34,550 bases of DNA from Myxococcota bacterium (GCA_023150845.1 JAKLKD010000040.1:1-34550); one strand, 5' to 3'. Positions 2,057 to 17,206 are shown, counted from the first letter of the stretch. Notes: generated by a model from the sequence alone, not told the origin. Program-made: numbers and translations.

Positions 2057-2138
2057 GGGCGAAAAGCTGGCCGGGGCAGGGTGGCGGCGGCTGGTCGGGT
2101 CGGGTTAAGTGCCCGCCCCTGTAACCAGGAGCACCCCG

Positions 2139-2834
2139 GTGCGCGCGGCCTACTTCGACGTGGACGGCACCCTCGTCCGGACCAACCTCATCCAGCCGAC
2201 GGTGATGTACTTCGCCAACTCCCAGACCCCCTGGGAGACGTTTAAGCGTGTCGGCGGCGCCTTGCTCGATGGCCCTCGGATGGCTCTGGCGGAGCTACAG
2301 GACCGCCGACTGTTCAACGAGGCGCTGTTCTCCCACTTCAAGGGCATGTCTGAAGACCGCCTCGTCGAGCTGAGCCGTGAGGTCTTCCAGTCCGTCGTGA
2401 AGCCCAACCTGTTCCGGGGCGCGACGGACCTCATCCTCAAGACCCAAGACGCCGGCATGCGGGTGGTGCTCATCACGGGCTCCCTCGACGTGACGATGTT
2501 CCACCTCGCCGACCACCTCAACGTCCCGCGGAAGGACGTCATCGCGAACCGGCTGGAGATGAAGGACGGCTACGCCACGGGCAAGCTCATGCGCCCGGTC
2601 GTCGCCGGGCCCGGCAAGGCCCAGCTCATCGTCGATGACGCCCGCGGTCATGGACATGACCTGGCCTTGTGCCAAGGCTACAGCGACTCCTACTCCGACG
2701 TGCCGATGCTCTCGGTGGTGGGGCACCCCTACTGCGTCCACCCCGACTCCAAGCTGCGCCAGCTCGCCCAAGCCTACAACTGGCCCATCCTCGACATCGA
2801 CACCCCCGCCCGCGGGATGCTCGGTCGTCCCTGA
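2139..2834 (+). CDS. HAD-IB family phosphatase, ElbB-like
   Basis: A 231-residue haloacid dehalogenase hydrolase, subfamily IB (phosphoserine-phosphatase-like), probably removing phosphate from a lipid or glycerol phosphate intermediate. Motif I is FDVDGT with nucleophile Asp7 and Asp9. Motif II is LITGS. Motif III/IV is the acidic YSDSYSDVPML block with Asp183 and Asp187. I start it at GTG 2139 because CAGGAG sits at 2126-2131 with 7-base spacing; a GTG at 2109 in the same frame would add ten residues but has no ribosome site. It is the first gene of a + strand operon with the LarA-like gene (30-base gap) and the megaenzyme. An HAD gene in this position matches the myxobacterial elb ether-lipid cluster as I recall it. 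The phosphatase role is firm by motif; the substrate is inferred. Confidence 0.85.
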   Translation: MRAAYFDVDGTLVRTNLIQPTVMYFANSQTPWETFKRVGGALLDGPRMALAELQDRRLFNEALFSHFKGMSEDRLVELSREVFQSVVKPNLFRGATDLILKTQDAGMRVVLITGSLDVTMFHLADHLNVPRKDVIANRLEMKDGYATGKLMRPVVAGPGKAQLIVDDARGHGHDLALCQGYSDSYSDVPMLSVVGHPYCVHPDSKLRQLAQAYNWPILDIDTPARGMLGRP

Positions 2835-2864
2835 ACCCTGCGGATTCTCGCCCAGAGGCCCTCG

Positions 2865-4502
2865 ATGAGCAGCCACCCCTCCGTCGTCACCATCAGCCAC
2901 CGCTCGAAGCCGCGGGTCATCTTCTCCGGCGACCAGCTCGTCGAGGTTGATCTCCCCATCGGCACCCGGGTCATCTACCCCAAGCCGCCGCTCAAGCCCC
3001 TGAACGACGTCGACGCCGCGATCCGCTACGCGCTCAGCCACCCGCTGAACAGCGAGCCGCTCTACGCGCTCCTGCGCCCGGGTATGAAGGTCACCATCGC
3101 CATCGATGACCTCTCGATGCCCCTGCCGCCGATGAAGTCCCCGGACATCCGCGGGCGCGTCGTCGAGGCCGTGTTGGAGCTCCTCGACCAGTACGCCGTC
3201 ACCGACATCGAGCTCATCATCGCCACGGCGTTCCACCGCCCGATGACGAAGGACGAGATCAAACACGTCGTCGGCCCCAAGACCTTCAAGCGCTTCTGGC
3301 CCAACCGTCTGTACAACCACGACGCTGAGCGCCCCGGCGGCATGACCTACCTCGGCAAGACTGAGGACGGCATCGACGTCGAGATCAACGCCCGGGCCGC
3401 CGAGAGCGACCTCATCATCTACTCGAACCTCACCTTCGTGCCGATGAACGGCGGGCACAAGTCCCTCGGCACGGGGCTCGTGGGCTACAAGACCCTGCGG
3501 CACCACCACAACCCGGCGACGATCCGCGCGTCGGAGACCTACATGGATCCCAAGGTCTCCAACCTCAGCGCGAAGCTGGAGCGGGTGGGCAAGCTCATCA
3601 ACTCCAAGGTCAAGGTGTTCACCATCGAGACGACGGTGAACAACCGGATGTTTGACACGCCGCTCGAGTTCTTGTCCAAGAACGAGGACGAGCTCACGCC
3701 CACCGAGGAGCGCGGCCTCAAGGCCCTGGTGAAGGCCCTGCAGATCCTCCCGCAGCCCGCCCGCCAGGCCATCTTCGAGAAGGTGCCCGCGCCGTATGGT
3801 GTCATCGGCGTGTGGGCCGGTGAGACCGAGGCCGTGCACAAAGAGACGCTCAAGAAGTGCTACGAGCAGCTCCTCGTGCCCGTCGAGGGCCAGTCCGACA
3901 TCGTCATCTTCCCGATCCCCTACATCAGCCCCTACAACGTCGGCGCGTTCTTGAACCCGCTGCTCGTCTCGGTGATGGCCCAGGGCTACCTCTTCAACCT
4001 CTCCAAGGGCGCGCCCCTGGTGAAGAAGGGCGGCACGGTCATCATCACCCATCCCTGCTCCGACAAGTTTGATCGGGAGCAGCACGCGCCCTACGTCGAG
4101 TTCTTCCACAAGATCCTGACACAGACGAAAGACGCGATGGAGCTGCACAAACGCTTCGAGCGCGACTTCGCCCGCAACCCCGGCTACATCCAGATGTACC
4201 GCACGGGCAAGGGCTACCACCCCGCGCACCCGTTCTACATGTGGTACTGGGGCGAGAACGGTCGGCAGCACATCGGCCGGGTGATCGTCGTCGGCGCGGA
4301 CAACGAGTATGTGCCGAAGATCCTCGGCTATGAGACGGCCCCGACGATGAACGAGGCCCTGCGTATGGCGCGTGAGACGGCGCCGCCGAGCCCGTCCATC
4401 ACGCTCTTCCGCATCGCGCCGATGGTCATGACTGAGGTCACGCCGGGCAAGGCCGCCGGGGCCCTGACCGAGACGAGCGGCGAGGAGGATGAGGCTCTAT
4501 GA
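2865..4502 (+). CDS. LarA-like DUF2088 (lactate racemase domain) protein, ElbC-like
   Basis: A 545-residue cytoplasmic protein with the DUF2088/LarA fold signature. Visible motifs are IAIDD (78-82), ATAFHRPMTKDE (120-131, with His124), NHDAE (His152) and GGHKS (196-200, His198/Lys199). These occupy the places where LarA keeps residues that hold its nickel-pincer cofactor, so a hydride-transfer racemase or epimerase chemistry on a 2-hydroxy acid or alcohol is possible. The substrate is unknown. It is longer than LarA (about 425 residues) and has a Tyr/His-rich region around 440-470. It follows the HAD gene closely and its stop overlaps the megaenzyme start (ATGA, 4499-4502), implying translational coupling and a shared pathway. 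No lar maturation genes (larB, larC, larE) are in the window, so cofactor supply would have to come from elsewhere if it is nickel-dependent. Confidence 0.78.
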   Translation: MSSHPSVVTISHRSKPRVIFSGDQLVEVDLPIGTRVIYPKPPLKPLNDVDAAIRYALSHPLNSEPLYALLRPGMKVTIAIDDLSMPLPPMKSPDIRGRVVEAVLELLDQYAVTDIELIIATAFHRPMTKDEIKHVVGPKTFKRFWPNRLYNHDAERPGGMTYLGKTEDGIDVEINARAAESDLIIYSNLTFVPMNGGHKSLGTGLVGYKTLRHHHNPATIRASETYMDPKVSNLSAKLERVGKLINSKVKVFTIETTVNNRMFDTPLEFLSKNEDELTPTEERGLKALVKALQILPQPARQAIFEKVPAPYGVIGVWAGETEAVHKETLKKCYEQLLVPVEGQSDIVIFPIPYISPYNVGAFLNPLLVSVMAQGYLFNLSKGAPLVKKGGTVIITHPCSDKFDREQHAPYVEFFHKILTQTKDAMELHKRFERDFARNPGYIQMYRTGKGYHPAHPFYMWYWGENGRQHIGRVIVVGADNEYVPKILGYETAPTMNEALRMARETAPPSPSITLFRIAPMVMTEVTPGKAAGALTETSGEEDEAL

Positions 4503-7500
4503 GCGAGCTCACCACCACCACCAGCGGGGCCCCGAGCACCCGCCCGCTGATGCTGCGGCAGATCCTCACCGGCCGCCGCCTGCTCGCCGTGGGCGGGACG
4601 GGGTTCTTGGGCAAGGTGTGGCTGTCGCTCTTGCTCCACCGTTACCCTGAGCTCGGCCACGTCTACCTCGTGGTGCGCCCGCGTAAGGGCCAAGACACCC
4701 AGGCGCGCTTCTGGGCCGAGGTCGTCACCTCGCCCACCTTCGACCCCCTGCGCGAGAAGTACGGCCGCACGGGCTTCGAGGAGTTCATCAAGGAGAAGAT
4801 CACGCCGATCCCCGGCGACGTGTCCGACCCCTACGCCGGTGTGCCGGAGTCTGTGCGGGATCAGCTCCGCGGGCGCATCGACGCGATGGTGAACATCGCC
4901 GGTGTGGTCGACTTCAACCCGCCGCTGGACTACGCGCTCAAGTCAAACGCCTTCGGCATGCAGAACCTCGTCGCCTTGGCCAAAGACCTCGGCGGCGTGC
5001 CGTTCATGCACACCTCGACCTGCTATGTCGCTGGGGATCGCACCGGGGAGGTCCACGAGATCGACCCCTTGTCGTACCCCTTCCCCAAGGCCGACAAGCT
5101 AGAGAAGCAGCACTGGGACCCCGCCCGGGAGATCGCCGAGTGTGTGGACCTCGTCGAGAACGTGCGCCATCGCGCCAACGACGCCTTCCGGCAGTCGGCG
5201 TTCTTGGACCAGGCCAAGAAGAACCTCATCGAGCGTGGTGAGCCCGCCCGCGGCAGCGCGCTGGCCGATGAGCTAGAGAAGGTGCGCCGCAAGTTCATCG
5301 AGGACCGGCTCATCAAGGACGGCACCGAGCGCGCGAAGTTCTGGGGCTGGCACAACATCTACACCTACACCAAGAGCATCGGCGAGCAGATCCTCTGCCT
5401 CTCGGGCCTGCCGTTCACCATCGTTCGCCCGGCGGTGATCGAGTCCGCGATCGAGTACCCCGAGGTGGGCTGGTGTGAGGGCGTGAACACCTCGGCGCCG
5501 CTCATCTACCTCTCGATGAAGGGCCCCGGCGGCTTCCCCGCTGAGAAGGAGTCTGTGCTGGATGTTATCCCCGTGGACATGGTCTCCGCGGGCATGATCT
5601 GCTCCTTGGGTGAGCTTCTGGAGGGCAGCCAGCGCGTCGTCTACCAGTACGGCAGCTCCGACAGCGCGCCTTTGCCGATGTACCGGCTCATCGAGCTCGT
5701 GGGCTTGGGCAAACGCCGCCATTACAACGAGAAGGCGGGCGGGAACCCGATCTTCAACTGGATCATGGCCCACAATGAGCCGGGCCACATGACGGCGGAC
5801 GAGTACTACGCCACGGGCCCCACCGCCCAGTCCAACTGGGTCAAGAGCCTCGCCGGGGCCGTTCGGTCCCTCGGCGGGCCCCTCAAGCCGCTCACGGGAC
5901 CCGCCGCCAAGCAGCTAGAGGGCGTCTCGAAGCAGCTCGGCATCCGGGCGCGTATCCTCGATCAGTTCGTGCCGTTCACCGCGACGCACAACTACCGCTT
6001 CTCCTGCGCGAACACCCGCGCGGCCTACGCGCGGCTGCCCGACGGCGAGCGCGCGCTCTTGCCTTGGTGGCCCGAGCGTATCGACTGGCGGTATTACATC
6101 CTCGACGTGCACATCCCGGGCCTTGAGCGCCACGTCATGCCCGAGATCGACGAGCGCATCGCCAAGCCGGCCCAGGCGCTCCGGCGGCATGACACGCTCA
6201 CGGAGCTCATCGACGAGGTGGCCGAGCGGCACCGTCACGCCGCGGCGCTGGCGCAAACCCACACAGACGGCTTCGCGGTCGTCACCTACCAGGGCCTCCG
6301 GGAGCACGCCCTCACCGTCGCCGCGCGCCTGCGCAGCCTCGGGCTCAACCCCGGCGACCGTGTGCTCATCTCCGGCCAGAACCACCCCGACTGGCCCATC
6401 GTCTACTTCGGCGCGCTCTACGCGGGCGGCGTCGTGGTGCCGGTAGACCCCGCGCTCAAGCCGGAGCAGATCACGAACATCGAGTCCGTGGCGCAGCTCC
6501 GCTTCGCGGTGATGGACCAGAAGGCCCGGGACGCCTTCGGCGCCGCGATCCTCTGCCAGCGCCTCGATCTGCATGAGCTCGCCGACTCGGGTGACGCCGC
6601 GGAGCTTGAGGCCGCCCTGGCCGCCGAGCCCCACCGCTGCAAGCCCAACGACGTGGCGAGCATCCTGTTCACCTCGGGCACGACGGGCACGCCGAAGGGC
6701 GTGATGCTCACGCACACGAACTTCTGCTCGCTCTTGGGCAGCCTCGGGAAGATCTTCCCCTTGCGTGAGACGGATCGAATCCTCTCCGTGCTGCCGCTCC
6801 ACCACACCTTCGAGTTCTCCTGCGGCCTGCTCCTGCCGCTGTCTCGTGGCGCGCGCATCATCTACCTCGACGAGATCAACGGGGAGCGCCTCACCTACGG
6901 CCTCCGTGAGGGTCGCGTCACAGGCATGGTCGGCGTGCCCGCGCTCTGGCAGCTCTTGGAGCGCCGGATCCGCGGCCAGGTCAAGGAGAAGGGCGCCTTC
7001 TTTGAGGTGGCCGTCGATCTCGGCCTCGACCTCAACCGTTGGCTCGGCAAGACCGCCGGGCTCGACGTGGGGCGACTGTTCTTCGGGTCTGTGCATGATC
7101 GCCTCGGCGGCAACATCCGCTTCTTGATCAGCGGCGGCGCGGCCTTGCCCCGGGAGACGCACCAGCTCTTCCAGGGCCTCGGCCTGCACCTCGCTGAAGG
7201 CTACGGGCTCACCGAGGCCGCGCCGGTGCTCGCCGTGGCCGAGGGCGGTCCGGGCACCAAGGCGGGCAGCGTCGGGAAGGCCATCCCCGGCGTGACGCTC
7301 AAGATCCTCAACCCCGACAAGGACGGCGTCGGAGAGGTGCTCGCCAAGGGCCCGAACGTCATGGTGGGCTACTTCGGCAACGCCGAGGCCACGGCCCAGG
7401 TGCTCGACAGCGACGGCTGGTTACACACCGGCGACATCGGGCGCATCGACCACAAAGGGCGGCTGTCCCTGCTCGGTCGCTCCAAAGAGGTCGTGGTCAG

Positions 7501-9175
7501 CGCGTCCGGGGAGAACATCTACCTCGACGACGTCGAGTCTACCCTCGGGTCTGTGTCGGGTGTGAAGGAGTACTCCTTGGTGGGGCTCCCGGATCCCCGC
7601 GGCGGGGAGCGCCTCGGGATGCTCGCCGTGCCCGAGGAGGTCGAGGGCCTCGACCGCAGCTCGGCCCACGCCCGGGTGAAAGAGGCGCTTCGTGACGCCA
7701 TCGCCAAGCTGCCCGCCTCCCAGCGGCCCTCTGTGATTCATCTCGTGGACGCGGACCTCCCCCGCACCGGCACCCGAAAGGTGTCCCGCAAAGAGGTCAA
7801 GAAGGTCCTGGAGAAGATCGTCGCGGCCTCCTCGACAAAGCCCAAGCGTGGGGAAGGGGTCGCCGAGCCCGTGGCCCAGGCCATCGCCCAGGTCGCTGGG
7901 GTGGATCCGAGCACGGTCAGCGCCGACACCCGCATGGCGGACGAGCTGCACTTCGACTCCTTGATGTGGGTCGAGCTCGCCAGCGCCTTGGAGAGCCTGG
8001 ATGGCGGCCAGCCCGACGCCGAGGCCTTGGCGCGCTGCGAGACCGTCGCCGACGTCGTGCGCCTCGTGAACGTGCCCAAGCCGACCATCGTGCGTGAAGA
8101 GGACGTGCGTGACCGTGTGCAGATCCCCGGCGTCATCGCCCAGCCGCTCAAGTCGGCCTTGGGCTGGGCGCAGCGGGAGCTGTACGGCACCGGGCTTCGC
8201 ACCGAGGTCATCGGCCAGGGCAACATCCCGCAGAACCGCCCGGTGATCGTGGTGAGTAACCACTGCTCCCACCTCGACATGGGCCTCGTGAAGTACGCGC
8301 TCGGGCCGTATGGCCAGAAGCTCGTCGCTCTGGCGGCGAAGGACTACTTCTTCGAGGGCAACAAGTGGGTGGTGGCGTACTTTGAGCAGCTCACCAACCT
8401 CGAGCCCATCGACCGAAAGCGCGGCTTCCGGGCGAGCTTGGAGCAGGCGAAGTCCGTGATTCAGCGCGGTAACGTCGTGCTCCTGTTCCCCGAGGGCACC
8501 CGGCGCACAGACGGCGTGGTCGGCGAGTTTAAGCCCCTCGTGGGCTGGCTCGCGCTGGACACCGGCTTCGACATCCTGCCGATGCACCTTGAGGGCACCT
8601 TTGACGCCTTGCCCAAGGGCGCCATCGTGCCCCGCAAGCGGGACGTGAAGGTGCGCATCGGCCCGGCGATCACCATCGAGGAGCAGCGTCGGCTCACCGA
8701 GGGCCTCAAGCACGGCGACGCCGCCCGGCGTGTGGCGCGGATGGCCCAGGCCGCCGTGGAGGCGCTGCGAGACGGCGACGTGCTCGACCTCAGCCGCTGT
8801 GTCCCCGACGACTTCGCCGAGGTGGAGGCGCCCAAGGAGCCCGCCGTGGTGACGGCGCTCAAGGGCCTGCCCGCGCGTTTCGCCAAGGATCGCCTGGAGC
8901 GCCCGATCTCCTGGTACTTCTCCTTGGGTGAGAAGGACGGCCCGAAGTGGACGGTGATCTTGAACGAGGAGGGCTGCACGGTCACCGAGGGTCGCCCGCC
9001 TGGCGGCTCCGCGGACTGTGTCGTGAAGACCTCGCCGGAGATCCTCACCCGCATCATCCGTGATGGGTACGTCCCCGATCCCGGCGAGTTCTTCTCCGGG
9101 GCGATCAAGACCAACGACATCCCGCTGCTCATCGAGTTCTCGCGGGTGTTCCAGCTCTCGGAGGTGTCGCTGTGA
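4499..9175 (+). CDS. elbD: ElbD-like megaenzyme: reductase, AMP-ligase, carrier protein, PlsC acyltransferase, SCP2
   Basis: A 1558-residue multidomain lipid enzyme. An N-terminal thioester/fatty-acyl reductase has its NAD(P) loop GGTGFLG at about residues 35-41 and YTYTK with Tyr288 and Lys292. An adenylation domain (about 560-1090) carries FTSGTTGTPKG (724-734), EGYGLTE (near 900), HTGDIG (near 977) and a closing RTGTRKVSRK lysine motif. A carrier protein follows with FDSL, Ser1154 being the phosphopantetheine site. A PlsC acyltransferase has NHCSHLD (His1255, Asp1260) and FPEGTR (1330-1335). The last 90 or so residues resemble an SCP2 lipid-binding domain. The set would activate a fatty acid, hold it as a thioester, reduce it to an alcohol and esterify a glycerol backbone. 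This agrees with ElbD, the multifunctional enzyme of myxobacterial alkyl ether lipid synthesis. All catalytic motifs look intact. It overlaps both neighbours by 4 bases. Confidence 0.88.
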   Translation: MSELTTTTSGAPSTRPLMLRQILTGRRLLAVGGTGFLGKVWLSLLLHRYPELGHVYLVVRPRKGQDTQARFWAEVVTSPTFDPLREKYGRTGFEEFIKEKITPIPGDVSDPYAGVPESVRDQLRGRIDAMVNIAGVVDFNPPLDYALKSNAFGMQNLVALAKDLGGVPFMHTSTCYVAGDRTGEVHEIDPLSYPFPKADKLEKQHWDPAREIAECVDLVENVRHRANDAFRQSAFLDQAKKNLIERGEPARGSALADELEKVRRKFIEDRLIKDGTERAKFWGWHNIYTYTKSIGEQILCLSGLPFTIVRPAVIESAIEYPEVGWCEGVNTSAPLIYLSMKGPGGFPAEKESVLDVIPVDMVSAGMICSLGELLEGSQRVVYQYGSSDSAPLPMYRLIELVGLGKRRHYNEKAGGNPIFNWIMAHNEPGHMTADEYYATGPTAQSNWVKSLAGAVRSLGGPLKPLTGPAAKQLEGVSKQLGIRARILDQFVPFTATHNYRFSCANTRAAYARLPDGERALLPWWPERIDWRYYILDVHIPGLERHVMPEIDERIAKPAQALRRHDTLTELIDEVAERHRHAAALAQTHTDGFAVVTYQGLREHALTVAARLRSLGLNPGDRVLISGQNHPDWPIVYFGALYAGGVVVPVDPALKPEQITNIESVAQLRFAVMDQKARDAFGAAILCQRLDLHELADSGDAAELEAALAAEPHRCKPNDVASILFTSGTTGTPKGVMLTHTNFCSLLGSLGKIFPLRETDRILSVLPLHHTFEFSCGLLLPLSRGARIIYLDEINGERLTYGLREGRVTGMVGVPALWQLLERRIRGQVKEKGAFFEVAVDLGLDLNRWLGKTAGLDVGRLFFGSVHDRLGGNIRFLISGGAALPRETHQLFQGLGLHLAEGYGLTEAAPVLAVAEGGPGTKAGSVGKAIPGVTLKILNPDKDGVGEVLAKGPNVMVGYFGNAEATAQVLDSDGWLHTGDIGRIDHKGRLSLLGRSKEVVVSASGENIYLDDVESTLGSVSGVKEYSLVGLPDPRGGERLGMLAVPEEVEGLDRSSAHARVKEALRDAIAKLPASQRPSVIHLVDADLPRTGTRKVSRKEVKKVLEKIVAASSTKPKRGEGVAEPVAQAIAQVAGVDPSTVSADTRMADELHFDSLMWVELASALESLDGGQPDAEALARCETVADVVRLVNVPKPTIVREEDVRDRVQIPGVIAQPLKSALGWAQRELYGTGLRTEVIGQGNIPQNRPVIVVSNHCSHLDMGLVKYALGPYGQKLVALAAKDYFFEGNKWVVAYFEQLTNLEPIDRKRGFRASLEQAKSVIQRGNVVLLFPEGTRRTDGVVGEFKPLVGWLALDTGFDILPMHLEGTFDALPKGAIVPRKRDVKVRIGPAITIEEQRRLTEGLKHGDAARRVARMAQAAVEALRDGDVLDLSRCVPDDFAEVEAPKEPAVVTALKGLPARFAKDRLERPISWYFSLGEKDGPKWTVILNEEGCTVTEGRPPGGSADCVVKTSPEILTRIIRDGYVPDPGEFFSGAIKTNDIPLLIEFSRVFQLSEVSL

Positions 9176-10167
9176 GGATCTGTGTCACTGGCGGCACGGG
9201 CTTTCTGGGCCGGCACGTCGTCGAGCGCCTCAAACGTAACCACGAGCTCGTCGTCGTCGCTCGGCGTCCCACGCCGATCGAGGGTGTGTCCGTCGCCAAG
9301 GGCGACGTGACCGATCGTGGCAGCCTCGCCGCGGCGATGGACGGCTGCGAGACCCTCATTCACCTCGCGGGCTTCGTCTCCCAGCACCCGGACGACGCCG
9401 AGCGTCTGTATGACGTTCACGTCCGCGGCACGGAGAACGCCCTGGACGAGGCGCGGCGAGCGGGGATCAAGCGGGTGGTGTACCTCTCCACCTCGGGCAC
9501 GGTCGCCGTGTCGAAGGACGAGGAGTTCATCGCCAACGAGTCCTCGGAGACGCCCAAAGAGATCATCTACCGCTGGCCCTACTACCGCTCCAAGCTCATC
9601 GGCGAGGAGGCCGCCTTGGCGCGGAGCGACGCGGGCTTCGGCGTCGTCGCGCTGAACCCCTCGCTCTTGTTGGGGCCCGGCGACACAGACGGGGAGAGCA
9701 CCCGCTCGATCCGGATGTTTTTGGACGGCCAGCTCCCCGTGGCGCCCCCGGGCGGCCTGTCCTTCGTAGACGCCCGCGACGTCGCGACGGCTGTAGAGAC
9801 GGCGCTGTGGCGCGGTCGCCCCGGCAGCCGCTACCTCCTCGGCGCGGTGAACATGACGTTCATGGCTTATTATGAGCGTCTCGCCCGGCTCACGACGCTC
9901 AAGCCCCCGGCGATGAAGGCGCCGCCCTTGATGCGCACGGCGCTCGACTGGCTCCCGGACTGGGGCAAGAACGGCTTCGGCTTCGGCTTCACCGTGGACC
10001 GCGTGAGCATGGAGCAGGCCTGCCACACCTGGTACCTCGACGACACCCGCGCCCGGGCTGAGCTGGGCTGGGCGCCGCGGGATCCCATGGAGACCCTGCG
10101 GGACACGCTCGTGGACATGCTGGAGCGCTCCAAGGGCTACAACGCCGCGTCTCACCTCCGGGCTTGA
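9172..10167 (+). CDS. NAD-dependent epimerase/dehydratase family reductase, ElbE-like
   Basis: A 331-residue extended SDR protein. The cofactor loop TGGTGFLG (6-13) starts almost at the N-terminus. The catalytic elements are the YLSTSGT serine region (104-110) and YYRSK with Tyr137 and Lys141. The overall pattern resembles HpnA-like and dihydroflavonol-reductase/3-beta-HSD-like proteins, including OleD of the olefin pathway, so it probably reduces or oxidises a keto/hydroxy group on a lipid. The GTG start overlaps the megaenzyme stop (GTGA, 9172-9175), so it is the last gene of the lipid operon; a strong hairpin begins 17 bases after its stop. A gene of this type closes the elb cluster in my recollection. 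The reductase family is firm; the exact step is inferred. Confidence 0.85.
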   Translation: MRICVTGGTGFLGRHVVERLKRNHELVVVARRPTPIEGVSVAKGDVTDRGSLAAAMDGCETLIHLAGFVSQHPDDAERLYDVHVRGTENALDEARRAGIKRVVYLSTSGTVAVSKDEEFIANESSETPKEIIYRWPYYRSKLIGEEAALARSDAGFGVVALNPSLLLGPGDTDGESTRSIRMFLDGQLPVAPPGGLSFVDARDVATAVETALWRGRPGSRYLLGAVNMTFMAYYERLARLTTLKPPAMKAPPLMRTALDWLPDWGKNGFGFGFTVDRVSMEQACHTWYLDDTRARAELGWAPRDPMETLRDTLVDMLERSKGYNAASHLRA

Positions 10168-10289: not shown

Positions 10290-11414
10290 ATGCCAAGAGT
10301 GACACACCTCATCACTGGGGCCACAGGATTCGTGGGGAGCGCCATCCTGCTGGAGCTGCTTCAACGCACAGAGGATCCCATCGTCGCGCTGGTCCGCCCT
10401 ACGGCGAGTCAGACCGCGGAGCAGCGGCTCCACGAGACGCTGGAGGCCGTCGCCACGGGCTTCGCGCTGGATGAGGGCTGGCGGTCAGGGCTCGGCCGGG
10501 TGAGGGCCGTGGCGGGGGACATCTGCGCGCCGGGCTGCGGCGTCGAGGAGACGCTCCCCGCGGCGCGGTGGGTGGTGTGGCACGCCGCGGCCTCGTTGCA
10601 GTTCCAAGATCGCCATCGTGAGCACATCGATCGCACGAACGTCGAGGGCACACGCAACGTCCTCAGCCTCGCGCGCGCGCTCGAGGCGACGGACTTTCAC
10701 CACGTCAGCACGGCGTATGTGGTCGGGCGTCGCGCTGGGCTCATGGCGCCCGAGGTGTGCGACGTAGAGAGCGTGAACAATCATTACGAGCGCAGCAAGG
10801 TCATCGCGGAGCAGCTCGTGCTCACCTCGGGGCTGCGGTCTCGCATCTTTCGGCCAGGCATCGTCATTGGGCATTCCCGCACACAGTACGCCTTAAACTA
10901 CAATGGCATGTACGGCTTCTTGCGGGGCCTCATCAAGTTTCGTGACGTGCTCGACCGCACCCAGCCTGGGCTCTCAACACGGACTCTGGTGCAGATTCGG
11001 TGCGACGAGGAGGGTGATCTCGGCCTGGTGACCGTGGATGAGGTCGCCCGGGAGGCGGTGCTGCTGGCCCTTCGGGACGCCCCGCCGGGGATCTACAACC
11101 TCACGAACCCAACACCCCCCAACGTCGCCGAGACGGTCCGCACGCTGTTTGAGGTGGCGCGGCTCCCGAGCCCGGCCCTGGTGACCGACGAGTCAAACTT
11201 CTCGACGTTTGACCGCAAGCTCTCAGAGCGCCTGGAGTTTTATCGGTCCTACCTCATCAACCCCAAGCGCTTCTGCCGGGCCTCGGTGGAGGCGGTGCTG
11301 GGGGAGGCGAGCTCGCCTGGGGTGCTGCTGCCGCCGCCGCAGATTCACACCTTCAGCCGCGGGTACGCCGCCCAGGTCGAGGCGGAGCGTGTTGATGTGC
11401 CGGTGGCACGTTGA
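10290..11414 (+). CDS. Thioester/fatty-acyl reductase-like extended SDR
   Basis: A 374-residue reductase of the NAD_binding_4 (male-sterility, thioester-reductase) type. It has the cofactor loop TGATGFVG near the N-terminus, HVSTAYVVG, and a HYERSK motif giving the Tyr/Lys pair. Such enzymes reduce an acyl thioester to an aldehyde or alcohol. I choose ATG 10290 because AGGGAGA lies at 10274-10280, 9 bases upstream; an in-frame ATG at 10257 adds 11 residues but has no ribosome site. Its stop overlaps the sulfotransferase start (TTGA), so the alcohol it makes may be the sulfotransferase acceptor. Several codons here (AAT, CAT, TTA, TTT, ATT) are more AT-rich than in the flanking operon, a mild sign of a different origin. 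No carrier or ligase domain is attached, so it would act on a thioester made elsewhere, perhaps by the megaenzyme. Confidence 0.78.
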   Translation: MPRVTHLITGATGFVGSAILLELLQRTEDPIVALVRPTASQTAEQRLHETLEAVATGFALDEGWRSGLGRVRAVAGDICAPGCGVEETLPAARWVVWHAAASLQFQDRHREHIDRTNVEGTRNVLSLARALEATDFHHVSTAYVVGRRAGLMAPEVCDVESVNNHYERSKVIAEQLVLTSGLRSRIFRPGIVIGHSRTQYALNYNGMYGFLRGLIKFRDVLDRTQPGLSTRTLVQIRCDEEGDLGLVTVDEVAREAVLLALRDAPPGIYNLTNPTPPNVAETVRTLFEVARLPSPALVTDESNFSTFDRKLSERLEFYRSYLINPKRFCRASVEAVLGEASSPGVLLPPPQIHTFSRGYAAQVEAERVDVPVAR

Positions 11415-12475
11415 CCGCCCCGCTGCTCGTGCTCGGGACAGGGCGCTGCGGCTCGACGCTGCTCTCTGAGATCTTGCGGGATCACCCGAGCATCCTCAGC
11501 GTCTCGGAGCTGGTGGCCTTCGTCACGGACTTTGGCAGCCGCATCCCCCAGGTGCTCGGCGAGGGGCCCGTAGACGGCGCGACGTTCTGGTCGTGGCTCG
11601 CCGAGCCGCAGCCCCTGCAGAGCCTGCTGCTCCGCCACGGCCTGCGCATGAACGAGGTCATCTACCCCTTCGAGCGCGGGCGGTTCACCCCGGACGCGCT
11701 GCCGCCGATCCTGCAGGCCACCTTGCCGCACCTGGCGCCGGAGGACCCCGACGCGGTCTTCGACGCCTTGGCGGCGGAGGTGCCCACCTGGCCGACCGCC
11801 CCAGCCGCGGATCAGTACCGGCGTCTGTTCGTCTGGCTCGGGGCGCGTCTTGGGCGGCGTCGCTGGGCGGAGCGCTCCGGCGGCGGGCTGCGCGTCACGC
11901 CCCGTCTGCTCGCGGCCTTCCCCGAGGCGCGGGTGCTGCACCTCGTCCGAGACGGCCGAAACACGGCGATCTCGATGGCGTCTCACATCGGGTTTCGGAT
12001 GGCTTTCATCCACGCCCAGCTCGTCGAGATGCTGGGGGTTGATCCCTTCCGAAGCCCGATTCGGCGTGACGAGGAGGACCTCTCCGACGAGCTCGCCGCG
12101 CTCCTCCCCGAGCGCTTCTCCCGGCGCGCGTTTGAGGACTTCGATCTGTCTCCGGTCGTCTGTGGGCATTATTGGTCGGGGGAGATCACCCTCGGCCTCA
12201 AGGCCCTAGAGCGTGTGCCGCCAGAGCGCCTGCTCACGATGCGCTACGAAGATCTGTGCGCCGACCCCGTGAGCGCCTTGACCCGCCTCGGGGAGTTCTT
12301 GGAGGATGAGGTCGATCCGGGCTGGTTGTCGCGGGCCGCGGCGCGGGTAGGGCAGGGGAGCTCCGCCTGGGAGCGCCTGCCCGCGCGTCAGGCCGCGGAG
12401 CTTCACGAGGCCTGTCAGCCAGGCTTCGCCGCCTTGGCGGCCTGGGGTGTCCCGGCCTTTGAGGAGCCGCGTTGA
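11411..12475 (+). CDS. Sulfotransferase family protein
   Basis: A 354-residue cytosolic-type sulfotransferase that would move sulfate from PAPS to a hydroxyl or amine. The 5'-phosphosulfate loop GTGRCGSTLL is at residues 9-18 and the 3'-phosphate motif LVRDGRNTA at about 178-186 (Arg180-Arg183), both in the expected order and spacing. The rest is helical and Arg-rich, as usual for bacterial members. The start is a TTG at 11411 overlapping the reductase stop (TTGA, 11411-11414). No other start exists between it and the PAPS loop, so TTG is effectively forced. Its own stop overlaps the transporter in the same way. The genetic coupling suggests it sulfates the product of the reductase, but the acceptor is not visible in the sequence; glycan or peptide-tyrosine acceptors are alternatives. 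Confidence 0.85.
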   Translation: MTAPLLVLGTGRCGSTLLSEILRDHPSILSVSELVAFVTDFGSRIPQVLGEGPVDGATFWSWLAEPQPLQSLLLRHGLRMNEVIYPFERGRFTPDALPPILQATLPHLAPEDPDAVFDALAAEVPTWPTAPAADQYRRLFVWLGARLGRRRWAERSGGGLRVTPRLLAAFPEARVLHLVRDGRNTAISMASHIGFRMAFIHAQLVEMLGVDPFRSPIRRDEEDLSDELAALLPERFSRRAFEDFDLSPVVCGHYWSGEITLGLKALERVPPERLLTMRYEDLCADPVSALTRLGEFLEDEVDPGWLSRAAARVGQGSSAWERLPARQAAELHEACQPGFAALAAWGVPAFEEPR

Positions 12476-13278
12476 CCACCTTCGCCGTGACCCTGATGGT
12501 CGTGCTGCTCATGCTCAGCCTCGGGCTTGAGCTGCGGCCCCAGGACCTCGCCGAGGGCGCGTCACGGCGCGGCGCCATGGTCGGCGGGCTCCTGCTCAAC
12601 CTCGTCGTGCTCCCGCTCTTGGTGTTTGTGTTGGGTCGGACCGGCGCGGCCAGCGAGGAGCTGCTCGTGGGGCTCCTGGTCGTCGCCGTCGCCCCCGGCG
12701 GGCCCATCGGGGCGGGGATGGCGCGTATGGCGGGCGCCGACCTCGGCTACTCCGTGGCGCTCCTCACCGCCTTGGGGGTGCTGAGCGTCGTGACGGCGCC
12801 GCTCTGTGTGGTGTTGGGGCTCAGCGCCACGGAGCTGCTCGCGCCGATCCTGTTCACCTTGCTCGGCTGCCAGGTCGCGCCGCTGGCCTTGGGCATGGTG
12901 ACGCGGCGCTACTGGCCCGACCGGGCGACGGCGGCGGCGGGGCCCACACGAAAGGCGGCGACGGCGCTCTTGCTCCTGGTCGTCGTCGGCATGGTCTGGC
13001 AGCACATCGGGCGCCTCGTGGCCGCGCCGCTGGGCGTTCACCTCGCGGTGATCCTGCCGCTCGTCGCGCTGCTCGGCCCGGTGCTCGTCGGCGTCAGCCC
13101 CGTCCTTCGGGGCATGCTCATCGTGACGGCGGTGCGAAACATCTCCGTCGCGCTCTTGCTGTCAGACCGCTTCGTCAGCTCCGCGGAGACGCAGAGCGTC
13201 GTGCTCGTCGCCGCGTGGTGGATCCTCGTGCTGCCGATGGTGGCGGCGGCCTTGGCGTCGCGTCGCGCCGCGCGCTGA
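12472..13278 (+). CDS. Bile acid:sodium symporter (BASS/SBF) family transporter
   Basis: A 268-residue inner-membrane protein with about eight to nine hydrophobic segments and short loops. Features of the BASS family are the N-terminal hydrophobic run followed by LGLELRPQDL, and the conserved APGGPIGAGMARMAGADLGYSVALL crossing region, where family members bind sodium. Known BASS proteins carry anionic amphipaths such as taurocholate, steroid sulfates, pantoate and 2-keto acids. It begins at TTG 12472, overlapping the sulfotransferase stop (TTGA), so the three genes are translationally chained. This makes a sulfated or otherwise acidic lipid a plausible cargo (inference). It is slightly shorter than typical members (about 300). 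The gene ends 3 bases before the stop of the convergent permease gene, leaving no room for a conventional terminator. Confidence 0.85.
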   Translation: MTTFAVTLMVVLLMLSLGLELRPQDLAEGASRRGAMVGGLLLNLVVLPLLVFVLGRTGAASEELLVGLLVVAVAPGGPIGAGMARMAGADLGYSVALLTALGVLSVVTAPLCVVLGLSATELLAPILFTLLGCQVAPLALGMVTRRYWPDRATAAAGPTRKAATALLLLVVVGMVWQHIGRLVAAPLGVHLAVILPLVALLGPVLVGVSPVLRGMLIVTAVRNISVALLLSDRFVSSAETQSVVLVAAWWILVLPMVAAALASRRAAR

Positions 13279-13281
13279 GGC

Positions 13282-13770
13282 TCAGGCGCTGATACGCCCC
13301 CGGGCGAGCAGGCCCGCGAGGATCGGCAGCAGCAGGCAGGCGAGGAGTCGGGTGAGGGTGAGCCGCGCGCCGAGCACCCCAGCCTCGAAGGGCAGGCGGG
13401 TGAGGTTTAAGAGCGAGAGGCTCGTGAGGTAGGTCACGAGCACCCCCGGGCCGACCCCGGCGGCGCCTAAGGCCGCGGCGAGGGGCAGGCCGACGATGGG
13501 CCCGCCCGGTGTGACGACCCCAGCGAGCCAGGCGAGGCCGAGGCCACGCAGAGAGTCCGGGCCGTTGAGCCAGGCGCGGAGCGTCTCCGTCGGCAGCGCC
13601 CGCTCAACCAGGGCGACGAGCAGGAGCATCCCGCCGATGGCCGGGGCGAGCCAGAGCGTACGAGCCGCCGCGTCCTTGACGATGGGCGCCAAGGCCCCGG
13701 GCTCCTGGCGCTCGGTCCACGCCGAGAGGCCCAAGAGCAGGGCCGCCACCGCCGCGAGGAGGCCCTTCAC
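13282..13770 (-). CDS. Small permease-like membrane protein (DUF318/YraQ-like half)
   Basis: A 162-residue protein with about four to five hydrophobic segments. The stretch VTPGGPIVGLPLAAAL, followed by a second Leu-rich helix ending in RLPFEAGVLG, resembles the repeat half of DUF318 (YraQ/ArsP-like) permeases, which are usually 300 or more residues; this would be a half-size version, perhaps acting as a dimer. It starts at GTG 13770, overlapping the stop of the dikinase gene (GTGA), so it is the last gene of the TetR-led operon. ArsP-type relatives move organoarsenicals; here the substrate is unknown. The context (drug-type phosphotransferase plus TetR) hints at efflux or detoxification. The family link is moderate. 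Confidence 0.6.
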   Translation of the reverse strand: MKGLLAAVAALLLGLSAWTERQEPGALAPIVKDAAARTLWLAPAIGGMLLLVALVERALPTETLRAWLNGPDSLRGLGLAWLAGVVTPGGPIVGLPLAAALGAAGVGPGVLVTYLTSLSLLNLTRLPFEAGVLGARLTLTRLLACLLLPILAGLLARGRISA

Positions 13771-16433
13771 GCGCTCGCCTGAATCAAGACGTAGCCCTGG
13801 TCACCGTTCACGAGCAGCCGGTCGCCGGTCTTGATTGTGCGGGTTCCGCCATCGACGGAGACCACGGCGGGGATGCCGTACTCCCGGGCGACGACCGAGC
13901 CATGCGTCATGAGCCCGCCGACGTCGATGACCACGGCGGCGGCGTGCACAAACAGCGGCGTCCAGCCGGGGTCGGTGAAGGGCGCCACGAGGATCTCCCC
14001 GTGCTTTAAGGTGTCTGTGTTTGGATCGAGGATGACCCGCGCCACGCCCTCGACGACGCCGCCTGAGGCCGCGACGCCGACCAGAGCCCCCGCGGGGAGG
14101 TGATCCCGGCGGACCGGCGCCATCACCCGCGCGCCGCCGCTCATCATCACCCGGGGCGGATCCATCCTCTGGAAGCGCGCCTGCTCCTCCCGCCGCCGCC
14201 GCACCAAGGCCCGGAGATCCTCGCCGTCGGGGCGCTCAAAGGCGGCGATGAGCTCGGGGAGCTCCAGCATGAAGGCGTCCTCCACTTGGTCGAGGCGACC
14301 GGCCTCGGCCAGCGCCTCCCCGGCCTGCCGCGCCGCGTTGAGCCCGAGATCGAGCACACGGATGAGCGCAAACTTTGGGTGCTCCCGCAGGGCGAAGAGC
14401 TGGCGGTAGACCGTCGCGAGGCGTCGCACGAGGGGCGCCTTAAGCCAACCCCAGGCCCCGCGCCGCGCGGCGCTCACGAGGCGCTCGACGGCGGAGTCAC
14501 CGAGGGCCTTCATGCGGTCGTGGTGGGCGCGGTGGCCGCCCGGCTCTCCGGCGTGCAGCGCCCCGGCGACCACCCGCAGGAGCACGCCGGGATCGTCGCG
14601 GTAGCGGGGCTGGCCGATGTCGATCTCCCCCGGTCCACGCATGCCGAAGCGCGCCAAGAAGCGGTCCAGGGCGGCGAGGAGCTCGGGGCCCCCCGGCAGG
14701 GCCGCCAGCGTCTCCCGGCGCTGCTCCCCGGCGAGGAGCGCGGCCTTGAGGGCCTCATGGGGCCGCGCCACGTCAGCGAGGTCACCCACCTCCAGATCCA
14801 TGAGCGTCGTGATGTTGTCGGCGAGCCCCCGGGTGAGGTCCCGCATGGCCTCGGCGTCTGTGTCAGATCCCAAGACCTTGCCCAAGAGCCGCTCGGAGGC
14901 CACGCCCGCGAAGACCGGCGCCGCGTTCGGGAAGAGCGTCGGGAACAGGTCGCTGATGAGGCGCTCAAAGACCCTGAGCCGCGCCACGGGCGTCGTCTCG
15001 GCCAAGACCGCGACCCGGGCCCCGTGCACCGCGGCGTCGAGGCGCGCCGGGACGGAGCTGTGCAGCGCGTGGGGGTTGTCCCAGAGGAGCGCGCGCACGA
15101 CGGCGAAGAGCACCGGCGCCAAGATCGGCGCCCCGGCTCGGGGCTGCAGGGGGTCGGAGATCGTCTCCGGGCAGCGCTTGAGGGCCTCGGCGAGATCCGC
15201 GGCCACCCGGCTGTCGATGTTCTGAATCGCGGTGAGCACCTTGGGGCCCACGAAGGGGTGCTTGAGCACCGGGGTGACATCGAAGTACACCCGCCCGCCC
15301 GCGTGCCGGGTGAGGCGGCCCGGGCGCAGGTCGTTCAGCTCGCGGCCGATGGGCACGGCCTGGAGCCAGAGCGAGCGCCCCAGGGGGGTCATCGGCGCCG
15401 TCATCACCTGGACGTGGCCGAAGCTCAGCAGCACCCGCTGGCCAAGCTCCGGGCGGCGGGGCTCGGCCAAGGGGAACAGCGTGGTGATCGGCCGGGCCTG
15501 GAGCAGGTAGAGCGCGCCGTCCGCGAAGCACCACTCCAGGTCTTGGGGCTGGCCATAGTGCGCCTCGACCCGGCCCGCGAGGCGGACCAGCTCGCTGAGC
15601 ATCGGGTCGGTCAGGGCGGGGCGCCGGGCCTCCTCGTCGCTGTGGGTCCGGGTGACGGTGCCGCCTTCGGGCAAGGCGTAGATGCCGAGGCGCTTCACGG
15701 CGATCCGGCGCTCGATGACCTCCCCCGTCGAGCGCCGCACCCGGGCGAGGTCGGCGTCGATGAGGCCCGAGACGAGCGCCTCACCGAGCCCAAAGCCCGC
15801 GTCAACGCTCAGCACGTCCCGATCCCCCGAGATGGGATCGGCGGTGAAGAGGATGCCGGAGACCTCGGGCACGATCTGCCGCTGCACGACGACGGAGAGC
15901 CGCACCTGGCGGTGGGAGAAGCCGCCCCGGGCGCGGTACACGCAGGCCCGCTCGGTGAAGAGGGAGGCCTGGCAGCGGCGCACGGCGTGGAGCAAGGCGT
16001 CGGCGCCGCGCACGTTGAGGATCGTGTCCTGCTGACCGGCGAAGGAGGCGTCGGGGAGGTCCTCGGCGGTGGCGCTCGACCGCACGGCCCAGGCGTGCTC
16101 CGGGCCGCCGAGCTCGGTCCAGGCGGCCAACAAGGCGTCGGCGACCTCGACGGGGACCGGCTCGGCCTCGATGAGCTGGCGCAGGGCCTCGCTCTCCCGG
16201 CGGAAGCCCGGCAGGTCGTCGGGGCTCAGCGCCTCCAGCGCCGTCAGCGCGGCGTCGAGGCCGGGGATCGTGCGCATCGCCCGGTCAAAGGCCTCGGTGG
16301 TGACACAGAGCCCCGGCGGCACGGGCAGGCCGGCCTGGGTCATCTCGCCGAGGTTGGCGCCTTTTCCGCCGACCCGGGGCAGGTCCCGGGCGCTGAGCTG
16401 GTGGAAGGGCAGGATGAGGGCTGGGGTGGTCAT
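13767..16433 (-). CDS. PEP synthase/pyruvate phosphate dikinase-like phosphotransferase (rifampicin phosphotransferase architecture)
   Basis: An 888-residue ATP-dependent phosphotransferase. The N-terminal PPDK ATP-grasp domain (about 10-320) has GGKGANLGEM (22-31) and RSSATAEDLPDASFAGQQD (118-136). A long helical middle region (about 330-790) follows. The C-terminal swivelling phosphohistidine domain has GGLMTHGSVVAREYGIPAVV with catalytic His844. The PEP/pyruvate-binding barrel of true PEP synthase and PPDK is absent, so it cannot make PEP in the usual way. The order ATP-grasp, substrate domain, His domain and the length match rifampicin phosphotransferase (Rph), which inactivates rifamycins by moving the beta-phosphate of ATP. 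The middle domain decides the substrate and cannot be judged by eye. It starts at ATG 16433 overlapping the TetR stop (ATGA), implying regulation by that protein. An antibiotic or other hydroxylated small molecule is the likely substrate (inference). Confidence 0.85.
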   Translation of the reverse strand: MTTPALILPFHQLSARDLPRVGGKGANLGEMTQAGLPVPPGLCVTTEAFDRAMRTIPGLDAALTALEALSPDDLPGFRRESEALRQLIEAEPVPVEVADALLAAWTELGGPEHAWAVRSSATAEDLPDASFAGQQDTILNVRGADALLHAVRRCQASLFTERACVYRARGGFSHRQVRLSVVVQRQIVPEVSGILFTADPISGDRDVLSVDAGFGLGEALVSGLIDADLARVRRSTGEVIERRIAVKRLGIYALPEGGTVTRTHSDEEARRPALTDPMLSELVRLAGRVEAHYGQPQDLEWCFADGALYLLQARPITTLFPLAEPRRPELGQRVLLSFGHVQVMTAPMTPLGRSLWLQAVPIGRELNDLRPGRLTRHAGGRVYFDVTPVLKHPFVGPKVLTAIQNIDSRVAADLAEALKRCPETISDPLQPRAGAPILAPVLFAVVRALLWDNPHALHSSVPARLDAAVHGARVAVLAETTPVARLRVFERLISDLFPTLFPNAAPVFAGVASERLLGKVLGSDTDAEAMRDLTRGLADNITTLMDLEVGDLADVARPHEALKAALLAGEQRRETLAALPGGPELLAALDRFLARFGMRGPGEIDIGQPRYRDDPGVLLRVVAGALHAGEPGGHRAHHDRMKALGDSAVERLVSAARRGAWGWLKAPLVRRLATVYRQLFALREHPKFALIRVLDLGLNAARQAGEALAEAGRLDQVEDAFMLELPELIAAFERPDGEDLRALVRRRREEQARFQRMDPPRVMMSGGARVMAPVRRDHLPAGALVGVAASGGVVEGVARVILDPNTDTLKHGEILVAPFTDPGWTPLFVHAAAVVIDVGGLMTHGSVVAREYGIPAVVSVDGGTRTIKTGDRLLVNGDQGYVLIQASA

Positions 16434-17206
16434 GGCGCGCCTCGGGGGAGCGCCCCGCGGAGCAGCAAGGACACGATCTGCTCTGCTAAGGCGCGGGGTT
16501 CAGAGGGCTCGCGGCCCTCCATCATCGGGAAGAGGAGACCTTGGGCGAAGATCGTCGAGACGAGGGCCATCGCCAGGGCGTCGGCGTCACCCTCAGCGAG
16601 CTGGCCCCGGCACATCGCCGCTCGGAGCGCGTCCGCCAAGAAGGCGCGGGTGCCACGCTCCCGCTGTCGCACGGCGATGAACATGTCTCGGATAGCGCTG
16701 TCGGGGCCAAAGGCGAGCTGTAGCATGGCGCGGTTGCGCCAAATCTGCGACAGGGCGAGGGTCGTGAACTCGACGAGCTTGCCCTCCAGGTCGCCGCTGA
16801 GATCGAGCTTCCGGATGGCGCCCCTGGGGGTGCGCTCCTCGGCGAAGGCGCGCATGAGGCCGTCGCGGTCGCCGAAGTGGCGGTAGAGCGTCGCGAGGCT
16901 CACCCCGGCGCGCTCGGCGACCCGCTCCATGGTGGCGCCGCCCGGGCCGTTCTCTAAGAAGCAGGCCATCAGGGCGTCGAGGGCCCGGTCCCGAGCGGAG
17001 AGCTCGTCGGGGGTGCTCAGCCCGCGCTCCTCGGCCAAGGCGGTGAGCAGGGCCTCACGGCTCGGGAAACGCCGGAAGAGGGTGGAGCGGGAGACGGAGG
17101 CCGCGGCGGCGATCTCGTCCATGCTCGGATCGGCGCCGCCGCGGAGCAGTGACTCTGCGGCATCGAGGATCGCGGCGCGGGCTTGGGTGTCTTGAGGTCG
17201 AGGCAT
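16430..17206 (-). CDS. TetR-family regulator with two tandem helix-turn-helix domains
   Basis: A 258-residue transcription regulator. The first TetR-type DNA-binding domain spans about residues 9-60, with recognition segment SVSRSTLFRRFPSRE (37-51). A second complete one spans about 72-124, with GVSLATLYRHFGDRD (101-115). A C-terminal helical ligand-binding domain follows (about 130-250). Ordinary TetR proteins have one such domain in about 200 residues, so this is a fusion or internal duplication; the two halves differ enough to be old. It leads the operon with the dikinase (ATGA overlap). A perfect 14-base inverted repeat with the promoter inside it lies directly upstream, so autorepression is likely. 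There is no ribosome site before ATG 17206, consistent with a leaderless mRNA starting at or next to that codon. The ligand is unknown; a compound phosphorylated by the dikinase is a fair guess. Confidence 0.87.
   Translation of the reverse strand: MPRPQDTQARAAILDAAESLLRGGADPSMDEIAAAASVSRSTLFRRFPSREALLTALAEERGLSTPDELSARDRALDALMACFLENGPGGATMERVAERAGVSLATLYRHFGDRDGLMRAFAEERTPRGAIRKLDLSGDLEGKLVEFTTLALSQIWRNRAMLQLAFGPDSAIRDMFIAVRQRERGTRAFLADALRAAMCRGQLAEGDADALAMALVSTIFAQGLLFPMMEGREPSEPRALAEQIVSLLLRGALPRGAP

Follow-up and report, generated by a model that had tools for sequence, protein, structure and literature searches.

A conserved reductase-sulfotransferase gene pair, usually accompanied by a BASS-family carrier, as a candidate pathway for sulfated alcohols in Myxococcota and Acidimicrobiales

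The window analysed here, a stretch of 34,550 nucleotides, comes from a 7.1 Mb Myxococcota metagenome-assembled genome that has a same-genus relative (MAG.430, JAKLKE010000219). Within it, three consecutive genes encode a reductase (TR), a sulfotransferase (ST) and a carrier of the BASS superfamily (Table 1), and are chained together by two TTGA overlaps, as had been claimed in the original prediction. At the first junction, the stop codon of TR (TGA, 11412-11414) overlaps the TTG start of ST at 11411, and at the second the stop codon of ST (TGA, 12473-12475) overlaps the TTG start of BASS at 12472. These overlaps are forced and do not reflect a choice of annotation because the ST and BASS frames open just 15 and 9 nt, respectively, before the starts. 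For TR, an alternative start exists at ATG 10257; the ATG at 10290 is preceded by a purine-rich stretch and agrees with the homologues. The gene order and both 4-base overlaps recur in another species of the same genus (L011), and the dN/dS values between this species and the window are 0.22 for TR, 0.18 for ST and 0.34 for BASS. Taken together, these values and the retention of the overlaps imply that all three genes are maintained by purifying selection. A scan of the locus for promoters and terminators found none.

Table 1. Features of the trio and of the adjoining operon, in window coordinates
Feature	Position	Strand	Basis and remarks
TR, stand-alone extended SDR of the thioester-reductase / fatty-acyl-reductase type	10290..11414	+	374 aa; Pfam, motifs, AlphaFold
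ST, PAPS-dependent sulfotransferase of a distinct Sulfotransfer_3 subfamily	11411..12475	+	354 aa; Pfam, motifs, PDB folds
BASS-superfamily carrier with non-canonical sodium sites	12472..13278	+	268 aa; Pfam SBF, ASBT_Nm profile match
TTGA overlap, TR/ST	11411..11414	+	sequence; ATGA at the same site in sister species L011
TTGA overlap, ST/BASS	12472..12475	+	sequence; TTGA also in sister species L011
elbB-elbC-elbD-elbE-like ether-lipid operon	2109..10167	+	domains; 122 bp upstream of the trio; gene order and domains agree with the elb operon

The three families named at the outset are all recovered above the Pfam cut-offs, namely NAD_binding_4 for TR (E 6e-42, 144 bits against a cut-off of 20.1), Sulfotransfer_3 for ST (E 9e-21, 75.6 bits against 27) and SBF for the carrier (E 4e-18, 66.4 bits against 24.3), and the catalytic motifs of both enzymes are intact in 18 orthologues. 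In TR, S140-T141 and Y166-x3-K170 are invariant and the glycine-rich loop TGATGFVG is invariant or nearly so; in ST, the 5'-PAPS loop GTGRCGST (9-16) and the 3' motif R180-D-G-R183...S188 (RDGR....S) are invariant, with E33 as the candidate base. Hydrophobic segments were found in neither TR nor ST, and many are present in BASS.

The closest relatives of TR are reductases that act on acyl thioesters. The terminal R domain of MxaA is the top match both by PDB fold, as searched with an AlphaFold model of TR (pLDDT 91.5), and by profile, and other thioester reductases are also among the leading matches; the MxaA R domain releases its acyl chain as an alcohol. TR falls below the curated cut-off of TIGR01746 (119 against 213 bits), and the Sterile C-terminal domain that is present in fatty acyl-CoA reductases was not matched by Pfam. 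The top NCBIfam model, PRK07201, represents a two-domain reductase, and because the match is limited to the N-terminal part of the model, TR might act on an aldehyde only. We infer that TR reduces an acyl thioester with NADPH, in a reaction that may be either four-electron or aldehyde-only.

For ST (AlphaFold pLDDT 91.1), the sulfotransferases of CurM and of the Synechococcus olefin synthase (Ols), which place sulfate on the beta-hydroxyls of acyl chains, come first by sequence as well as by fold, although the structural match is moderate (TM 0.50/0.62, ~15% identity) and tyrosylprotein and steroid-type sulfotransferases follow just below in the list, which also includes retinol dehydratase. 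Given this moderate match and the closeness of tyrosylprotein and other sulfotransferases, an acyl-derived acceptor for ST is something that we can only infer. The best match is, in any case, no glycan enzyme, in line with the original prediction. Synthesis of PAPS requires APS kinase, which is encoded in all 13 carriers tested but also in 11 of the 14 controls; because this enzyme is common, its presence is a weak test.

The case for a functional module is carried by the linkage between TR and ST. A scan of GTDB contigs yielded 11 relatives of ST with 46-83% identity, and further searches of 379 Myxococcota genomes and of the Acidimicrobiales, Granulosicoccaceae and Plesiocystis orders brought the total to 18 loci, which span Myxococcota, Acidimicrobiales and one Granulosicoccaceae MAG. 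Conserved adjacency across related genomes had been set beforehand as the test of the original prediction, and TR lies directly upstream of ST at all 18 loci of the subfamily, in three phyla, which is far beyond chance. Among the 379 Myxococcota genomes, eight contain an ST match above 500 bits, all of them with TR, and the TR matches above 500 bits come from exactly the same eight genomes; a further 15 genomes have ST matches at 210-237 bits, none with TR. The full trio is present in a cultured organism, Plesiocystis pacifica SIR-1 (L017). The distribution is patchy (8/379 sampled Myxococcota genomes and 4/298 genomes of the Acidimicrobiales order), suggestive of horizontal transfer. Five main groups are recovered in both the TR and the ST trees: the window with L011; six loci of the Acidimicrobiales order with the Granulosicoccaceae locus; L016, L017 and L064; L018, L019 and L020; and L021, L046 and L065. 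The TR-ST pair of the window joins the Acidimicrobiales/Granulosicoccaceae group and not the other Myxococcota (support 99/98 for ST and 94/94 for TR), a sign of horizontal transfer. The sole Pseudomonadota locus (L015) comes from a contig of 4.4 kb, which may have been binned wrongly. Thus, by obligate adjacency and matching clades in 18 of 18 loci, TR-ST is a conserved unit.

The third position is more variable. BASS is encoded directly 3' of ST in nine loci of Myxococcota and of the Acidimicrobiales order (the window, L011, L012, L013, L017, L020, L053, L054 and L055), frequently overlapping ST, and at L046 it is divergent, beside TR. Within Myxococcota, the close BASS subfamily (> 300 bits) occurs in four genomes, in every one of them at a TR-ST locus. 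However, BASS is absent from 7 of the 17 assessable loci (L014, L016, L018, L019, L021, L064 and L065; L015 was left out of the count as its contig ends too soon), and in most genomes with such BASS-less loci no close BASS copy was found elsewhere. BASS is therefore ruled out as an obligate component, and we consider TR-ST to be the core of the module, with BASS as the usual third gene; of the original notion of the trio as one unit, the pairing of the enzymes stands, whereas the carrier turns out not to be essential. At L021 (2341-3384) and L065 (10211-11218), the gene directly after ST encodes, instead of BASS, a membrane protein of the FA_desaturase family (52% mutual identity), L018 and L019 have a different desaturase located upstream, and at L012 an MMPL transporter directly follows BASS. 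The MMPL and FA_desaturase-family neighbours suggest a lipid setting. As proof of a fatty chain, however, the desaturase-like neighbours are weakened by the fact that the best NCBIfam match of the L021 and L065 proteins, itself weak, is an amino-acid hydroxylase model and not a lipid desaturase.

The carrier itself matches the SBF fold family over nearly its full length and ASBT_Nm structures by profile, in an alignment that is gapless in the relevant stretches. At the positions of the sodium ligands of ASBT_Nm, which we take to be Q77, S114, N115, T132, E260 and Q264 (numbering checked on the alignment), the trio protein has N, G, A/P, L, V and R, respectively. Across ten trio-type BASS proteins, V218, R222 and N223 are invariant, with an invariant arginine at the Gln264 site. 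Other BASS copies encoded in the same genomes mostly keep the canonical motifs PGGxxSN and E.G.QN, and many members of the family share conserved sodium-site residues (PMC10645422). Given the replacement of the canonical ligands, the trio BASS is predicted to work without the canonical sodium sites and, judging by its sequence, is probably sodium-independent; the arginine at the Gln264 site may bind an anion. Hence the protein is a BASS family member, as first proposed, yet one that has lost the sodium ligands of the well-studied carriers. The arginine motif is not unique to the trio: more distant BASS proteins within the same broad clade (G754, G368, G015 and G001) have R or related residues. 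One of these genomes, G015, has two tandem non-canonical BASS genes of this clade (L111, 4452-6121), with no TR or ST nearby.

A pathway in which the operon reduces an acyl thioester to an alcohol, sulfates this alcohol and moves the resulting sulfate ester by BASS has, in our estimate, about an even chance of being correct. The genes with their motifs and folds, the linkage of TR to ST and their joint inheritance are demonstrated; substrate, product and direction of transport are predicted. TR would use NADPH to convert acyl-ACP or acyl-CoA to the alcohol, either directly or starting from the aldehyde; ST would transfer sulfate from PAPS to the hydroxyl, yielding the sulfate ester of a primary alcohol; and BASS would bind the anionic amphipath and carry it across the inner membrane, probably outward and probably without sodium coupling at the canonical sites. 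Where a membrane di-iron enzyme occupies the third place, as it does in some lineages, it may tailor the chain. The single most likely product would be a long-chain alkyl sulfate, although a true long-chain alkyl sulfate is a tentative identification, with the chances against it. Comparably speculative is the proposal of a dedicated, transferable route to long-chain alkyl sulfates, the natural counterparts of SDS, in which BASS, with an arginine replacing the sodium sites, would export the sulfated lipid.

Could the same genes serve other ends? The enzymes might tailor a scaffold that is not a fatty acid, such as a terpenoid, a sterol or hopanoid, or a polyketide, with TR acting on a carbonyl, ST sulfating a hydroxyl and BASS carrying a product resembling a steroid sulfate. 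This alternative, which we regard as unlikely, draws on the bile salts and steroid sulfates that relatives of BASS carry in animals, on the weaker matches of TR to Epimerase (65 bits) and 3Beta_HSD (54 bits) in Pfam as well as to HpnA, and on the steroid-type sulfotransferases and retinol dehydratase in the fold list of ST; however, the NAD_binding_4 score of TR is far ahead of those of the other SDR families, MxaA and the thioester reductases come first by sequence and fold, and genes for terpenes, sterols or polyketides are not a recurrent feature of the TR-ST neighbourhood. A general detoxification system, in which TR would reduce a reactive carbonyl, ST would sulfate the alcohol and BASS would export it, with no dedicated lipid product, is highly improbable to our mind. 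Detoxification commonly proceeds by sulfation and subsequent export, and the patchy, transferable spread of the module would fit, but there is no conserved regulator or stress gene nearby, and the strict co-evolution of TR with one ST subfamily indicates a dedicated substrate. That BASS is a fortuitous neighbour unrelated to TR-ST likewise has only a slim chance: the carrier is missing from many loci and has orphan relatives in G754, G368 and G015, but its place directly after ST in nine loci, often with overlap, its divergent position beside TR in a tenth and the confinement of its close subfamily in Myxococcota to TR-ST loci all argue against coincidence.

A further alternative concerns the upstream operon, which encodes a HAD protein (elbB), a LarAH-type protein (elbC), a FAR-AMP ligase-ACP-acyltransferase (elbD) and an NAD epimerase (elbE). 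In M. xanthus, the elb operon has been described as responsible for alkyl ether lipids, for which ElbD is needed (PMC9131029). The trio might then extend the elb pathway, with ST adding sulfate to an alkyl glycerol or ether lipid that ElbD has produced, and TR helping to supply the fatty alcohol; the elb genes are on the same strand and are also found next to the trio in L011, and the FAR domain of ElbD would fit such a connection. Nevertheless, we consider this extension improbable: the elb operon adjoins the module in the window and L011 only (2/18 loci), it is not seen beside the module at the 16 loci from beyond this genus, those of Acidimicrobiales included, and the TR and ST of the window cluster with sequences from actinobacteria, as would be expected of a separate acquisition. 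Because the adjacency is confined to one genus and shared by the sister species only, an ether-lipid acceptor is not favoured and we take the module to be independent of ether-lipid synthesis. A general ether-lipid linkage is rejected, and with it the functional tie to the ether-lipid operon that had originally been drawn. In this genus, elb and the trio could share a fatty-alcohol pool.

To our knowledge, outside mycobacteria and cyanobacteria, bacterial sulfate-ester lipids have rarely been traced to genes. In the open-access papers searched, we found only analogues and no description of a reductase-sulfotransferase-BASS operon, in agreement with the original statement that no such three-gene system was known. 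The CurM and Ols enzymes are the nearest solved folds of ST and likewise sulfate an acyl-derived hydroxyl, but their sulfotransferase is a PKS domain whose substrate is a beta-hydroxyacyl-ACP, and the sulfate serves as the leaving group when the alkene is formed, whereas in the loci examined ST is free-standing, lacks a thioesterase, is paired with a reductase and falls outside their subfamily. Similarly, MxaA of the myxalamid pathway, the nearest relative of TR by sequence and fold, reductively releases an acyl thioester as an alcohol; its reductase, however, is a domain of a PKS-NRPS, whereas TR is free-standing and has its own conserved C-terminal region. With ASBT_Nm, NTCP and PanS of the BASS family, the trio carrier shares the SBF fold but differs in the replaced sodium-coordinating residues and the arginine at Gln264. 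The mycobacterial rv1371-rv1373 operon, which encodes a putative desaturase, Pks18 and a glycolipid sulfotransferase (PMC13141999), is also a small overlapping lipid operon with the sulfotransferase last, and its desaturase recalls the FA_desaturase-family gene beside ST in L021 and L065; it differs in the type III PKS chain and glycolipid acceptor and has neither a thioester reductase nor BASS. The myxobacterial elb operon adjoins the trio in this genus and, as described, includes no sulfotransferase or BASS (PMC9131029). Natural sulfated fatty alcohols made by sulfotransferases do exist in Entamoeba, as fatty alcohol disulfates, for which, according to a review (PMC6801973), no gene for an acyl-CoA reductase is known; that system is eukaryotic, and a TR-ST operon would solve the task differently. 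What is new about the module seems to be the conserved way in which it combines enzyme families that are themselves known, and the detergent-like bacterial lipid pathway seems to be undescribed. A two- or three-gene unit common to myxobacteria and Acidimicrobiales, with the cultured carrier P. pacifica SIR-1, offers a specific product that can be tested, and the BASS variant would test whether this carrier family works without sodium sites.

Several observations concern genes outside the module. The ElbC-like protein of the window scores above the curated cut-off of LarAH14/15/16 (775.9 against 740 bits), which suggests that ElbC, so far of 'unknown function', is an enzyme of the NPN-dependent hydroxyacid isomerase type. 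On the other side of the trio, the minus strand at 13767-16433 encodes a protein resembling PEP-synthase and rifamycin phosphotransferase, whose score of 719.6 bits falls short of the Rph cut-off (999); a TetR-type regulator comes next, at 16430-17206. The weaker ST matches in the 15 Myxococcota genomes (210-237 bits) represent a sister family with ~35% identity to ST; at its Myxococcota loci (L030-L045) no TR neighbour was found, and it adjoins a conserved DUF1214-like protein of ~400 aa in 14 of 16 loci, the DUF1214 match coming from one member. This sister ST and the DUF1214-like gene make up a second undescribed sulfotransferase pair. On Rhodobacterales plasmids of Paracoccus and Ketogulonicigenium (L099 and L101), a sister-type ST and a TetR gene are divergent from an operon related to KASIII, NAD-epimerase, MBL-fold and F390-synthetase, a possible sulfated-lipid or polyketide cluster.
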